This document shows positions 26,974 through 30,961 of a stretch of DNA of 64,000 bases, piece by piece. A model generated the notes under the pieces. It searched no databases, was not told the DNA's origin, and saw nothing but the letters and a program-made list of their open reading frames with translations. Location of the stretch: contig NZ_JAQMHX010000010.1 of the NCBI RefSeq assembly GCF_028331445.1, positions 1 to 64,000 on the forward strand, read 5' to 3'. The position numbers and the translations under genes were made by a program. Source of the stretch: Candidatus Phyllobacterium onerii. GTDB taxonomy: Bacteria; Pseudomonadota; Alphaproteobacteria; Rhizobiales; Rhizobiaceae. Within the stretch, counting starts at the first letter, position 1; each line of letters begins with the position of its first letter.

Positions 26974-27795
26974 TCAGGTCGGATTGGCCGTCGTCACTTC
27001 CTCTGTAATTACCTCGAAGCGAGTTAGTAATGAGGCACCAAAACTGGTGGATATAGCCACGTCGGTTGCGTCACGCCCGGTGGCCATGAGTATGCGCCCT
27101 ATGCGCGGCGTGTTGTGGCGGGCATCGACGGTGTGCCAGTGGCCGCCAAGATATACTTCGAACCATGCGCTGAAGTCCATGGGATCCGGATTGAATGGGA
27201 CGCCGATGTCGCCAAGATAGCCCGTGCAATAACGCGCGGGAATGTTCATGCAGCGGCAAAGGGTGATGGCGAGATGGGAAAAATCTCTGCACACGCCTGT
27301 CCTGTCGGTATATCCGCCAAAGGCTGTTCTTAGCGGATCGGCTTTCTGATAGTCGAAGGCTATGTGGTCATGGACGTAGTCCCGGATCGCCTCAACCCGA
27401 GGCCAGCCCAAGGGTGTCGATGAGAACTGCGACCAGGCAAAGTCGCCAAGCCTGTCCGTGTCGCAATAGCGGCTACCGAGGAGGAAGACGAGAACATCGT
27501 CGGGCAAATCCTTGATGTCGTGCTGGATGGCATTCCGGGGAATGACGTCTGGCTCGCCGCCGTCATAGATTACGAATTCTGAGGAGATTGTCGTAAGTCC
27601 GGGCGGGGCGACAATACGGGTGCAGGCATTTCCAAATCCATCCGTATAACCCCACGCATCGATTGGCTGGTTGAAAGTCAGTTTCTGCTCCGTCAGAAGA
27701 TCGACATGCCGCGAGGGATGAATATTCAGCACGAGCAACATCGCTGTCGGCTGCGGGCACTCGTATCCCAAAGTGAACCCGGCGCGTATCTTCAT
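26974..27795 (-). CDS. transglutaminase-like cysteine protease family protein
   Basis: The protein has 273 residues. The transglutaminase-like core has its catalytic triad: Cys in DRTGVCRDFSHLAIT near 165, His in GGHWHTVDARHNTPR near 220, and the following Asp. The N-terminal ~130 residues form the beta-rich domain usual in bacterial proteins of this kind (YECPQPTAMLLVLNIHPSRH). Such enzymes cleave or rearrange peptide/amide bonds; the substrate is unknown. The ATG at 27795 has a good AAGGAGA site and is preferred over the longer frame to 27834. It is transcribed in the same direction as the frameshifted transglutaminase upstream (27884-28493), so the pair may once have been an operon. Confidence 0.85.
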   Translation of the reverse strand: MKIRAGFTLGYECPQPTAMLLVLNIHPSRHVDLLTEQKLTFNQPIDAWGYTDGFGNACTRIVAPPGLTTISSEFVIYDGGEPDVIPRNAIQHDIKDLPDDVLVFLLGSRYCDTDRLGDFAWSQFSSTPLGWPRVEAIRDYVHDHIAFDYQKADPLRTAFGGYTDRTGVCRDFSHLAITLCRCMNIPARYCTGYLGDIGVPFNPDPMDFSAWFEVYLGGHWHTVDARHNTPRIGRILMATGRDATDVAISTSFGASLLTRFEVITEEVTTANPT

Positions 27796-27883
27796 CGTCT
27801 CTCCTTGATTGATAGCCGACTGCCTTGTTGACAATCATGCGGCAACGCCAAGGAGCCACTATGGGTTCCCTACAAACCTTCAA

Positions 27884-28493
27884 TCATGGCATCGTGTTCT
27901 CCGTAGTGACATTCACCTGCACCGACATTCCATCATAGTCGGAGGCGTCACCGTCGTAGCTTCCGGTCAATGGAATGGCTTGCCGCGGGTCACGGGCAAC
28001 AGCCACCCGGATCAGATCCCTGTTTCCCACGATCCCGTTCGTCGGATCGAACTCCACCCACCCGGCCCCGGAAGATAGATCTGGCACCATGCATGAGTCG
28101 ATCCGCCGCCGCGGGTTATCGAGCCATCGCGACTAGGCACATAAATGTAACCAGTGACAAAGCGCGCCGCTAATCCCAGTGAACGGGCTGCCTCCATCAT
28201 CAGCACGGCAAAGTCCCGGCAGGTGCCCCGCCGTAACGCAAAGTCTGAACAGGGGACTGCGTTCCCCGCGCTGCGCGACGCTCATACACGAAGCTCTCAT
28301 GAATTGCGAAGCAGAGCGTCATGAGCAGATGGCCCGTTTCCGTCGGATGGCCGACCCGAACGAACTGTCTGCCCCAGCGGCCGACTTCATCGTCACGATC
28401 CGGATAGTGACGCTCAATTGTGTGCTCCAGATCAGCAATCTCATCGTTCGCATAAGCGAAGGGATAGCTGAGGGCCTTTTCATCAATCTGCAA
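27884..28493 (-). pseudogene. second transglutaminase-family gene, truncated and frameshifted
   Basis: Three minus-strand frames together make the C-terminal two-thirds of a bacterial transglutaminase: DEKALSYPFAYANDE and the FVYERRAARGTQSPVQTLRYG helix, then GTCRDFAVLMMEAARSLGLA with the catalytic Cys and STHAWCQIYLPG with the His, then WVEFDPTNGIVGNRDLIRVA. Frameshifts lie near 28228 and 28065. No start and no N-terminal beta domain are present. All three catalytic residues are readable, but not in one frame. Confidence 0.8.
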
Positions 28494-28788: not shown

Positions 28789-29253
28789 ATGCATAGCACC
28801 GCTACTCCCGCCGCCACTTGCATGGGGGCGAACCTCGCATCGATGATGACCGAATTCGACAGCAACTTGTCTAACGAGGAATACCACGATCCAAAATTCG
28901 CATATCGCGTGGCGATGGTTCAGAAAAAAGCCAACAATCCTTCGACATCTGATTTGGCAGTCGAATTCGTGAAGAACGACACGGACGAAGCTGCAGAAAT
29001 CAACCGCGTCCTAATCAGGGATGTCGACAAACGGCGCTTCACATCAAGGCAAGTGTGGGAACTGATGCAAGCCAACGGCTACCCGAAATTCAACAACAAC
29101 AGCCATATGAAACTTTGGAAGAGTCTTGAAGCAAAAAATCCTGACAAAAGCTTCGGACGGGCGGGCGACTACAAGAACACGTGGGTTTGGCACGATTCAT
29201 GGATTGAACGCGTCCGAGCTCATTGTGAAGAGCACGCTCAAGATTATTGTTAG
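28789..29253 (+). CDS. DUF3644-like C-terminal domain protein, probably 5'-truncated
   Basis: This 154-residue protein has the sequence EYHDPKFAYRVAMVQKKANN followed by a winged-helix-like C-terminus (RFTSRQVWELMQANGYPKFN, MKLWKSLEAKNPDKSFGRAG, WVWHDSWIERVRAH). It resembles the C-terminal part of DUF3644 proteins from prokaryotic defence-type loci, which are normally about 320-350 residues. The N-terminal half is missing and the first ~25 residues are non-conserved, so the gene is probably truncated; ATG 28789 is the first in frame, and 28843 is an alternative. It ends four bases before the operator array of hipBA. The identification is from memory and moderately uncertain. Confidence 0.5.
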   Translation: MHSTATPAATCMGANLASMMTEFDSNLSNEEYHDPKFAYRVAMVQKKANNPSTSDLAVEFVKNDTDEAAEINRVLIRDVDKRRFTSRQVWELMQANGYPKFNNNSHMKLWKSLEAKNPDKSFGRAGDYKNTWVWHDSWIERVRAHCEEHAQDYC

Positions 29254-29257
29254 CGAT

Positions 29258-29381
29258 ATATACGATCCCATATGAATGGTAGTGATATAGGTCCATATAT
29301 AAAAATAAACTATATACGTGCCTATATTGACCTGCGTGATATACGAGCGTATATCATGACCATTCATATAGGAGCGTATAT
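29258..29381 (+). promoter_or_regulatory. five-site operator array of hipBA
   Basis: Five 16-bp imperfect palindromes with consensus ATATASGWNCNYATAT start at 29258, 29285, 29312, 29339 and 29366, exactly 27 bp apart. Half-sites are ATATA(C/G)G and C(C/G)TATAT. The last copy contains the GGAG ribosome-binding site of hipB and ends one base before its ATG. The array is placed and shaped like a HipB operator set, so cooperative autorepression of hipBA, including blocked translation initiation, is inferred. E. coli hipBA has four operators (TATCC-N8-GGATA) at unequal spacing; this half-site differs. Confidence 0.8.
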
Positions 29382-29382
29382 C

Positions 29383-29655
29383 ATGCGAATCCGAACTACT
29401 CGGGACATTGGCATTCTGATGAAAGAGGCCCGTAAACGGCAAAACCTGTCTCAGGCTACCTTAGCCAAGATGATCAACACGACCCAAACTTGGGTATCGT
29501 GGGTCGAACATGGCAAGTCCACCGCGGAGATCGGCAGCGTGCTGCTCGCCCTCACAACACTTGGTGTCGAGATGGACTTCAAACTTCCGACGATATCGTC
29601 GCCGACGCCGTCGGGGGATGATCAGGACGACGACACCCCGCCCTACACACTTTGA
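29383..29655 (+). CDS. hipB: HipB-type antitoxin, helix-turn-helix repressor
   Basis: This 90-residue protein has an Xre-type helix-turn-helix: DIGILMKEARKRQNLSQATL, then AKMINTTQTWVSWVEHGKST. It matches HipB antitoxins, which bind HipA and repress the operon. The C-terminus is acidic and Pro/Asp-rich (SPTPSGDDQDDDTPP). GGAG lies eight bases before ATG 29383. The same frame is open to an ATG at 29272, where the operator array reads as a nine-residue peptide repeat (xI-G/R-x-YI), but those codons are probably not translated. hipA begins 13 bp downstream. Confidence 0.88.
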   Translation: MRIRTTRDIGILMKEARKRQNLSQATLAKMINTTQTWVSWVEHGKSTAEIGSVLLALTTLGVEMDFKLPTISSPTPSGDDQDDDTPPYTL

Positions 29656-29668
29656 AAGATGATGATCA

Positions 29669-30961
29669 ATGGTCGATATCCTCGATGTCTACATTTCCGG
29701 TCGGGTGGTGGGAGAACTGTACCACCTGCAGGGCGGCAAGCTCTCGTTCTCTTATAATGAGTCGTGGATGAACGGCAAAATTGCCATTCCGCTGTCGCTG
29801 TCAATGCCAACCATCACCAAGACCTACGAGGGCAAAGCAGTTGAAGCCTTCTTATGGGGACTTCTGCCAGACAACGAGCAGACCCTCACCAGATGGGCGC
29901 AAAGATTCCAGGTTTCTGCTCGCAATCCGTTTGCCCTGCTGAAGAACGTCGGTCGTGACTGCGCCGGTGCCGTCCAATTCTTGCCACACGGTGAGGAAAC
30001 CTTCCGTGACGAGGACGTCGAATTACTAACAGATGAGCAGATTGGCGACCGCCTTCGCGACCTGCGCCGAGACGGTGCTGCAACACGGCGGATAGGCGAC
30101 CCTGGTCAGTTTAGCCTTGCCGGCGCGCAAGCAAAGACTGCCTTTCACTTCAACAAGGCCACTGGCCGGTGGGGTATCCCACTGGGCGATACGCCCACAA
30201 CGCACATCTTCAAGCCACCAATGCTGCACCTGCACGGGCATACAGAGAACGAACACTTCTGCCTGCAACTCGCAAACATGCTGGGTATGGATGCAGCGAA
30301 CAGTCAAGTTCTTGAATTTTCCGGGGAGAAAGCGATTGTCATCGAACGCTACGACCGTAGGAATCTTGCCGGGAAAACCGTCCGCATCCATCAGGAAGAT
30401 ATGTGCCAGGCACTGTCGGTCATGCCGACGCTTAAATACGAGAACCAGGGTGGCCCCGGCATTACAACGATCTCGAACAGGGTGCTTGCAGCGTCTAGAG
30501 ATCCCGTCCGCGACAGGCAGACGTTCATGGAAGCGAACATTTTCAACTGGGTTATTGGTGGCACTGACGCGCACGCAAAGAATTACTCCATGCTGATTGG
30601 CGTCTTGGCCGAAGCACGTCTCGCTCCACTCTACGACATCTCAAGCATCTTGCCACACCTTGGTGAAGGGGAGGTGCAAGCGGAGATGCGTGACCTGAAG
30701 CTCGCAATGAAGATCGACAAAACATATCAACTCGATGAGGTAATGCCCCGGTACTGGGAGCGCTGTGCGTCTGCCGCCAAAGTGAGTACCGAGTACACGA
30801 TGGAGGCTGTTCGCCGTCAGGTCACTGTGATGCCAGATATGGTATCTGATTGTGCGGCGAGCGTACGTGCTGAGGGCTTAACTCATGAAATTGTCGATCG
30901 GCTCGTCGATACGATTGCGGGGCGCGCCAAAGGCCTGTCGAGGATCTACGGCACGGAGTAA
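29669..30961 (+). CDS. hipA: HipA-type serine/threonine kinase toxin
   Basis: This 430-residue protein is full length for HipA. It has the N-terminal HipA_N domain (VYISGRVVGELYHLQGG), the phosphorylation/P-loop segment SLAGAQAKT near residue 148, the catalytic GGTDAHAKNYSM near 297, and the metal-binding LAPLYDISS near 322. HipA-family kinases phosphorylate a translation component (GltX in E. coli) and cause growth arrest and persistence; HipB counters this. The target here is not known. It is co-transcribed with hipB and followed by a perfect inverted repeat. Confidence 0.9.
   Translation: MVDILDVYISGRVVGELYHLQGGKLSFSYNESWMNGKIAIPLSLSMPTITKTYEGKAVEAFLWGLLPDNEQTLTRWAQRFQVSARNPFALLKNVGRDCAGAVQFLPHGEETFRDEDVELLTDEQIGDRLRDLRRDGAATRRIGDPGQFSLAGAQAKTAFHFNKATGRWGIPLGDTPTTHIFKPPMLHLHGHTENEHFCLQLANMLGMDAANSQVLEFSGEKAIVIERYDRRNLAGKTVRIHQEDMCQALSVMPTLKYENQGGPGITTISNRVLAASRDPVRDRQTFMEANIFNWVIGGTDAHAKNYSMLIGVLAEARLAPLYDISSILPHLGEGEVQAEMRDLKLAMKIDKTYQLDEVMPRYWERCASAAKVSTEYTMEAVRRQVTVMPDMVSDCAASVRAEGLTHEIVDRLVDTIAGRAKGLSRIYGTE

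Follow-up and report, generated by a model that had tools for sequence, protein, structure and literature searches.

HipA is a textbook case of a persistence toxin, whose release is believed to hinge on contacts between HipAs on the promoter. In the hipBA operon of Escherichia coli K-12, four TATCCN8GGATA sites are found at -134, -106, -67 and -39, with spacings of 28, 39 and 28 bp. According to PMC3376134, E. coli HipB binds the four sites cooperatively and the complex bends an operator by 70 degrees, and two other papers report that HipA dimerises within the E. coli HipA/HipB/operator complexes (PMC7029023, PMC6581861). For the HipBST system of Legionella pneumophila, PMC10653801 describes three even HipB-bound sites upstream of the operon; their 53-bp gaps, added to 18-bp sites, imply a 71-bp pitch.

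We analysed a window of 64,000 nucleotides, i.e. the whole stretch of DNA under study, in which five dyads precede a hipBA operon. Judged from the sequence, these dyads are very probably the sites where the HipB antitoxin binds and thereby switches off its own genes. The features are as follows.

29258 to 29273, no strand: candidate operator site 1, ATATACGATCCCATAT, from the sequence and orthologue comparison
29285 to 29300, no strand: candidate operator site 2, ATATAGGTCCATATAT, from the sequence and orthologue comparison
29312 to 29327, no strand: candidate operator site 3, ATATACGTGCCTATAT, its final T being the first base of the predicted -35
29339 to 29354, no strand: candidate operator site 4, ATATACGAGCGTATAT, inside the promoter spacer, its right arm forming most of the predicted -10
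29366 to 29381, no strand: candidate operator site 5, ATATAGGAGCGTATAT, 3' of the predicted transcription start and enclosing the Shine-Dalgarno
29327 to 29332, plus strand: predicted -35, TTGACC, from a looser hexamer pattern across orthologues
29350 to 29355, plus strand: predicted -10, TATATC, 17 bp after the -35, from the pattern across orthologues
29370 to 29374, plus strand: Shine-Dalgarno AGGAG, 8 nt before the ATG and inside site 5, read from the sequence
29383 to 29655, plus strand: hipB, a 90-aa XRE-type antitoxin of the couple_hipB/Y4mF kind, with HTH_31 and HTH_3 above cut-off
29669 to 30961, plus strand: hipA, a 430-aa HipA-family Ser/Thr kinase toxin, with PF07804 and PF13657 above cut-off

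As the preliminary description proposed, the genes downstream of the dyads are hipB and hipA, judged from their family matches and from the match of the latter to the solved E. coli HipA chains (about 2e-63). The window HipA keeps the key kinase residues, with equivalents of S150, D309, D332, G22 and P86 all present, and HipB matches TIGR03070 at 7.5e-16 and 57.8 bits, under the curated cut-off of 71.65. A HipA with its N- and C-terminal domains and catalytic residues, preceded directly by a small XRE-type HTH gene, is the composition of a type II hipBA; in HipBST systems HipA is split into HipS and HipT, and here a single 430-aa HipA holds both domains. By gene content, the operon can be classed as a type II hipBA toxin-antitoxin, with putative toxicity and neutralisation. 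The window HipB ends in the tail DDDTPPYTL, and an acidic tail, in some cases also His-rich, is seen in the HipBs of the window and of L005, L006, L007, L034, L035 and L036, with a PY(K/T)L terminus in 7/7. The C-terminal Trp88 of E. coli HipB is called universally conserved in PMC3376134; tails of the window clade end in PY(K/T)L.

Just 5' of the array, a 154-aa open frame on the plus strand (28789-29253) has no Pfam or NCBIfam match. Further away, a transglutaminase-like gene occupies 26974-27834 on the minus strand, and the short overlapping minus-strand frames found upstream of it (27884-28493) resemble, as far as the list of open reading frames can tell, a frameshift-broken second transglutaminase-type protein.

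The claim of five regularly spaced 16-bp dyads was borne out: all five are present at the starts listed above with zero mismatches to ATATASGWNCNYATAT, and the pitch is 27, 27, 27 and 27 bp. Taking as an E. coli-type operator array a minimum of two palindromes spaced 26-28 bp in front of hipB, the window holds one of five sites at 27. A repeated-dyad scan, which assumed no motif and covered lags 18-70, returned 27 as the best lag of the window promoter, with a score of 54/64 and a maximum of 42 among 100 dinucleotide shuffles. The 11-bp spacers separating the dyads are unrelated to one another and Tandem Repeats Finder reported no array at the five dyads, which makes a recent tandem duplication an unlikely origin. 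Perfect matches to ATATANGNNCNTATAT in the whole 6.0-Mb genome are confined to four of the five array sites; the fifth carries one mismatch, as do two places elsewhere in the genome. When up to two mismatches were allowed, ATATANGNNCNTATAT was found at 55 places of the 6.0-Mb genome, the five sites included, versus 88 for a reversed-pattern control, and a genome-wide regulon of array-like sites was rejected since there is no excess over this control. On straight DNA of 10.5 bp per turn, 27 bp correspond by arithmetic to 2.57 turns, or about 206 degrees, between neighbouring dimers. The previously suggested placement of successive HipB dimers on alternating faces fits this value, though bending may change the geometry.

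HipBs 70-78% identical to that of the window are encoded on two Devosia plasmids and in genomes of its own family, for instance on an Aminobacter contig and on one of a 'Rhizobiaceae bacterium'. The orthologue set comprises seven promoters, two of which are near-identical Devosia plasmid loci. Searching 347 genomes of the order with HipB turned up no further close relative, the two matches being the window and G351, already collected. ATATA..TATAT dyads are present in 7/7 orthologous promoters, and 18 of their 19 adjacent spacings are of 27 bp, the remaining one being of 28 bp. Relative to the ATG, site starts run from -125 to -17 in the window (five sites), from -127 to -19 in L036 and L037 (five each, the last one degenerate), from -125 to -44 in L007 (four), from -127 to -45 in L006 (four, spacings 27/28/27) and from -98 to -17 in L034 (four), and L035 and L005 have two sites each, at -68 and -41. 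The expectation that homologous upstream regions might keep both features of the array is thus upheld for the 27-bp pitch but not for copy number, which varies from two to five. With motif and pitch kept in orthologues, the dyads behave as HipB operators would.

To place this array among hipBA promoters, 222 loci, picked by HipB or HipA score and all from Pseudomonadota, were surveyed together with the window. Thirteen loci had been excluded manually at the outset: ten that duplicated places in the set, and the weak own-genome matches L002-L004. HipB-HipA pairs were found at 182 loci and the 41 without a pair were dropped, among them L011, L012, L013, L016, L025 and L030, which have clear arrays at 49-50 or 38-39 bp. 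Removing HipBs at least 80% identical left 128 non-redundant promoters. At p of at most 0.02 in 150 shuffles per promoter, 81/128 contain a significant repeated dyad, and the 47/128 without one count against the array reading. The same scan inside the hipA genes was significant in 5/128 (lags 27, 44, 54, 69 and 73), with the single cases at 27 and at 54 also counting against. Best lags of the 81 fall at 26-28 bp in 22, at 49-51 bp in 28 and elsewhere in 31. Three are at 54-55 bp, twice 27, and minor groups lie at 30-31 (five), 37-41 (seven) and 70-71 (three). Some lags outside the main classes are multiples (54-56, 74, 77, 80), but 21, 30-31, 40-43, 60, 70-71 and 79 fit neither the classes nor multiples, which again counts against. 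The mean excess over shuffles peaks at lags 27, 50 and 54.

A spacing of 26-28 bp is therefore one of the two commonest best lags and, against the preliminary description, 27 bp is not unique to the window. Its view that known hipBA promoters have fewer and uneven sites also fails, given the four sites of E. coli K-12 (28/39/28) and the five of Methylorubrum extorquens AM1 (27/27/28/27). When arrays of best lag 22-32 were extended freely, allowing 20-34 bp, further spacings were 26-28 in 21/23 and exactly 27 in 18. The 27 promoters of this best lag hold two sites in 13 cases, three in 7, four in 5 and five, the most seen, in the window and M. extorquens. On the other hand, pitch is sometimes mixed, with 28 and 39 bp in E. 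coli and 28 and 37 bp in L187, which counts against a uniform value. Half-sites within the '27' class differ widely (ATATACG, ATACGC, TTACGC, AGACC, ATCCC, ATAGCC), and that related gene pairs with quite different site sequences share this spacing suggests that it counts in its own right. With half-sites free to vary at a fixed pitch, the pitch is naturally read as a distance between proteins, perhaps set by contacts of neighbouring HipAs; contacts between HipBs could set it instead.

Several further arrays were noted. Loci L010-L015, L017, L018, L021, L022 and L025 carry a hipB type common in the window's family, with TTTCCCGATCGGGAAA-like operators 49-50 bp apart. At L109, L112 and L128, which are HipB-HipA loci, GATTT...AAATC-like dyads are 70-71 bp apart, near the pitch implied for Legionella HipBST. 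A scan of viral contigs gave one HipA relative, L236 (IMGVR_UViG_3300023213_000717), where a hipBA with a HipA 47% identical is accompanied by four identical GTCACCGATCGGTTAC sites at 28/26/29 bp. The idea of the 50-bp class as 2 x 25 with hidden middle sites was rejected, with mean scores of -0.05 to 0.03 at offsets 16-34 over 56 intervals.

Pitch classes were then mapped on a HipA tree (123 rows, FastTree, with long-branch warnings). Labels were given to 87/128 rows: the significance rule labelled 81 of them, and a preset-bin rule (a chain of at least 3 sites), which favours the named classes, the other six, which are non-significant. The 45-row clade that includes the window (support 100) contains 27 of the 28 '27' rows, one '50', one '38', three 'other' and 13 unlabelled rows; L183, with which the E. 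coli HipB was merged, is one of its rows. The neighbouring 48-row group (support 84) has no '27', 29 of the 30 '50' rows, three '38', six 'other' and 10 unlabelled. The label '27' requires 7 changes on the tree versus a shuffled mean of 23.5, with 0/500 shuffles as low; labels '38' and '62' show no clustering on it. Some labels are weak or odd: L225 and L228 have low scores, L198 resembles a non-palindromic minisatellite, L069 is labelled 50 with sites at 24/24 and L187 is labelled 38 with 28 and 37, and L134 and L193 are 'other' despite chains of 27/26/27 and 28/28. Since genomes of the window's own family hold all three kinds, 27, 38-39 and 49-50, pitch class goes with the clade of the toxin and not with the host. 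In a full-text literature search, we recognised no paper stating a pitch rule across hipBA promoters, nor any tying pitch class to HipA clade.

HipA length separates the pitch classes little (medians of 432.5 and 418). At E. coli position 86, P is found in 13/28 '27' rows and is outside the five commonest letters, which cover 26/30 rows, of the '50' class; at position 88, D is found in 10/28 '27' rows versus 0/30 '50' rows, and the window has A. We take P86 of E. coli HipA to be a high-persistence position, and positions 86 and 88 to belong to the dimer interface. These letters are a suggestive hint, and only that, of a dimer-interface difference between pitch classes, and the retention of P86 in just 13/28 '27' rows counts against the best reading set out next.

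Collectively, these data are best read as a real, conserved array of HipB operators, an extended version of the E. coli type. We put the probability that it is an autoregulatory hipBA operator at roughly 0.85, a reading in which we infer HipB binding, cooperativity, bridging by HipA and toxin sequestration. A HipB dimer would sit on each 16-18-bp dyad. Sites 3 and 4 would hold the predicted promoter between them, so that bound HipB would exclude RNA polymerase, and sites 1, 2 and 5 would lengthen the array and strengthen binding by cooperation. At the fixed 27-bp pitch, HipA on one HipB dimer could touch HipA on the next, as in the E. coli complexes, and at full occupancy transcription would be repressed and the kinase held paired and inactive. 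More tentatively, at somewhat less than even odds, operator spacing may be a built-in dimension of the HipA-HipB complex whatever the operator sequence, of 26-28 bp in the window/E. coli clade, about 50 bp in the neighbouring group and, more rarely, 38-39 and 62 bp; a five-site array would then be a short DNA filament storing paired inactive kinase, with a capacity given by site number. From about 27 to 38-39 and on to 50 bp, each step is of 11-12 bp, which suggests roughly one extra helical turn per step.

The predicted promoter itself offers a different origin for the pitch. In 7/8 promoters, including the window and excepting L035, a sigma-70-like hexamer pair TTGAnn-17-nATATn, located at -53 to -58, threads two neighbouring sites. 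In these seven, the -35 starts at the final base of one dyad, and the right arm of the following dyad, the last or second last, serves as the -10. The sigma-70-like promoter at 29327-29355 is thus a prediction drawn from this looser pattern, with a start predicted near 29362. A generic promoter scan does not list the pair because it demands that the -10 end in T; on the plus strand it gives one other weak pair (29356-29384, 9/12), for a total of 2 against 1.0 (sd 1.0) in shuffles, i.e. chance level. The 27-bp pitch could accordingly be a by-product of promoter geometry, with AT-rich arms doubling as a -35 and -10 17 bp apart, which would force 27 bp, and further sites added by duplication. Indeed, the window's clade has a -35 that opens with the final T of one arm and a -10 formed by the right arm that follows, and 27-4 = 6+17. 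Sites outside the promoter pair nevertheless share the same pitch, half-sites unlike a -10 (TTACGC, AGACC, ATCCC) also keep 26-28 bp, and the unrelated window spacers speak against recent duplication, which leaves this explanation improbable.

Site 5 was also proposed to cover the ribosome-binding site and to extend repression to translation. The overlap is present here, with AGGAG inside the dyad, but among the seven orthologues a clear equivalent is seen only in L034; the two Devosia plasmids have a degenerate site over the ribosome-binding site. Were site 5 to act at the RNA level, its dyad would block translation at the Shine-Dalgarno as a hairpin or when bound by HipB, and RNA from 29334, holding sites 4 and 5, does fold at -23.1 kcal/mol (z -4.11). 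Such an RNA needs a start upstream of the predicted one, however, and any dyad in two copies pairs within a long transcript, whereas RNA from 29361, close to the predicted start, folds no better than shuffles (z -0.88 and 0.09). Furthermore, the last site ends 25-29 nt 5' of the ATG in 4/7 orthologues. Repression through translation is thus not supported and appears a shade less probable even than the by-product of promoter geometry; a repressor on DNA at site 5 can block transcription without acting on translation. A coding repeat, in which in-frame 9-codon units form an N-terminal HipB extension from an ATG at 29272, draws on 27 being nine codons and on a hipB frame open for 129 nt upstream in the window and likewise over the two-site arrays of L035 and L005, but was rejected as highly improbable because a stop closes this frame within the array in 5/7 orthologues, the ATG at 29383 has a good Shine-Dalgarno and what recurs is a dyad, with unrelated spacers between the copies, and not a set of codons.

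The array, read as an autoregulatory operator, is of a known type; the interesting part is that pitch class goes with HipA clade. If the pitch is fixed by HipA-HipA contact and differs between clades, the promoter sequence alone would reveal the geometry of the HipA dimer. Natural arrays of two to five sites would provide a ready series on whether site number sets the amount of toxin held, and the window array, with five sites at uniform spacing, is a clean example from the top of the range of site numbers seen.

Among the systems compared, Legionella HipBST differs from the window in its 53-bp gaps, its motif and its split toxin (PMC10653801). The '50'-class promoters (TTTCCCGATCGGGAAA, L010, L014, L078) resemble the window in that between two and four evenly spaced dyads precede hipB and hipA, but have a pitch of 49-51 and no hidden middle site and belong mostly to a separate HipA group. 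For the hipBA1 and hipBA2 promoters of Caulobacter crescentus, PMC7029023 notes a similar series. The megaplasmid hipBA of M. extorquens AM1 (L038) has five sites at 27/27/28/27 and a HipA 48.6% identical to that of the window, but its half-site is ACCG. Like E. coli K-12, the window has several dyads upstream of hipB in a HipB-HipA operon, with adjacent pairs 28 bp apart in E. coli; it differs in having five sites at 27 instead of four at 28/39/28 and the half-site ATATA(C/G)G instead of TATCC. The half-site TATCC is absent from the window array, and we do not treat it as family-defining because half-sites vary widely within the '27' class.
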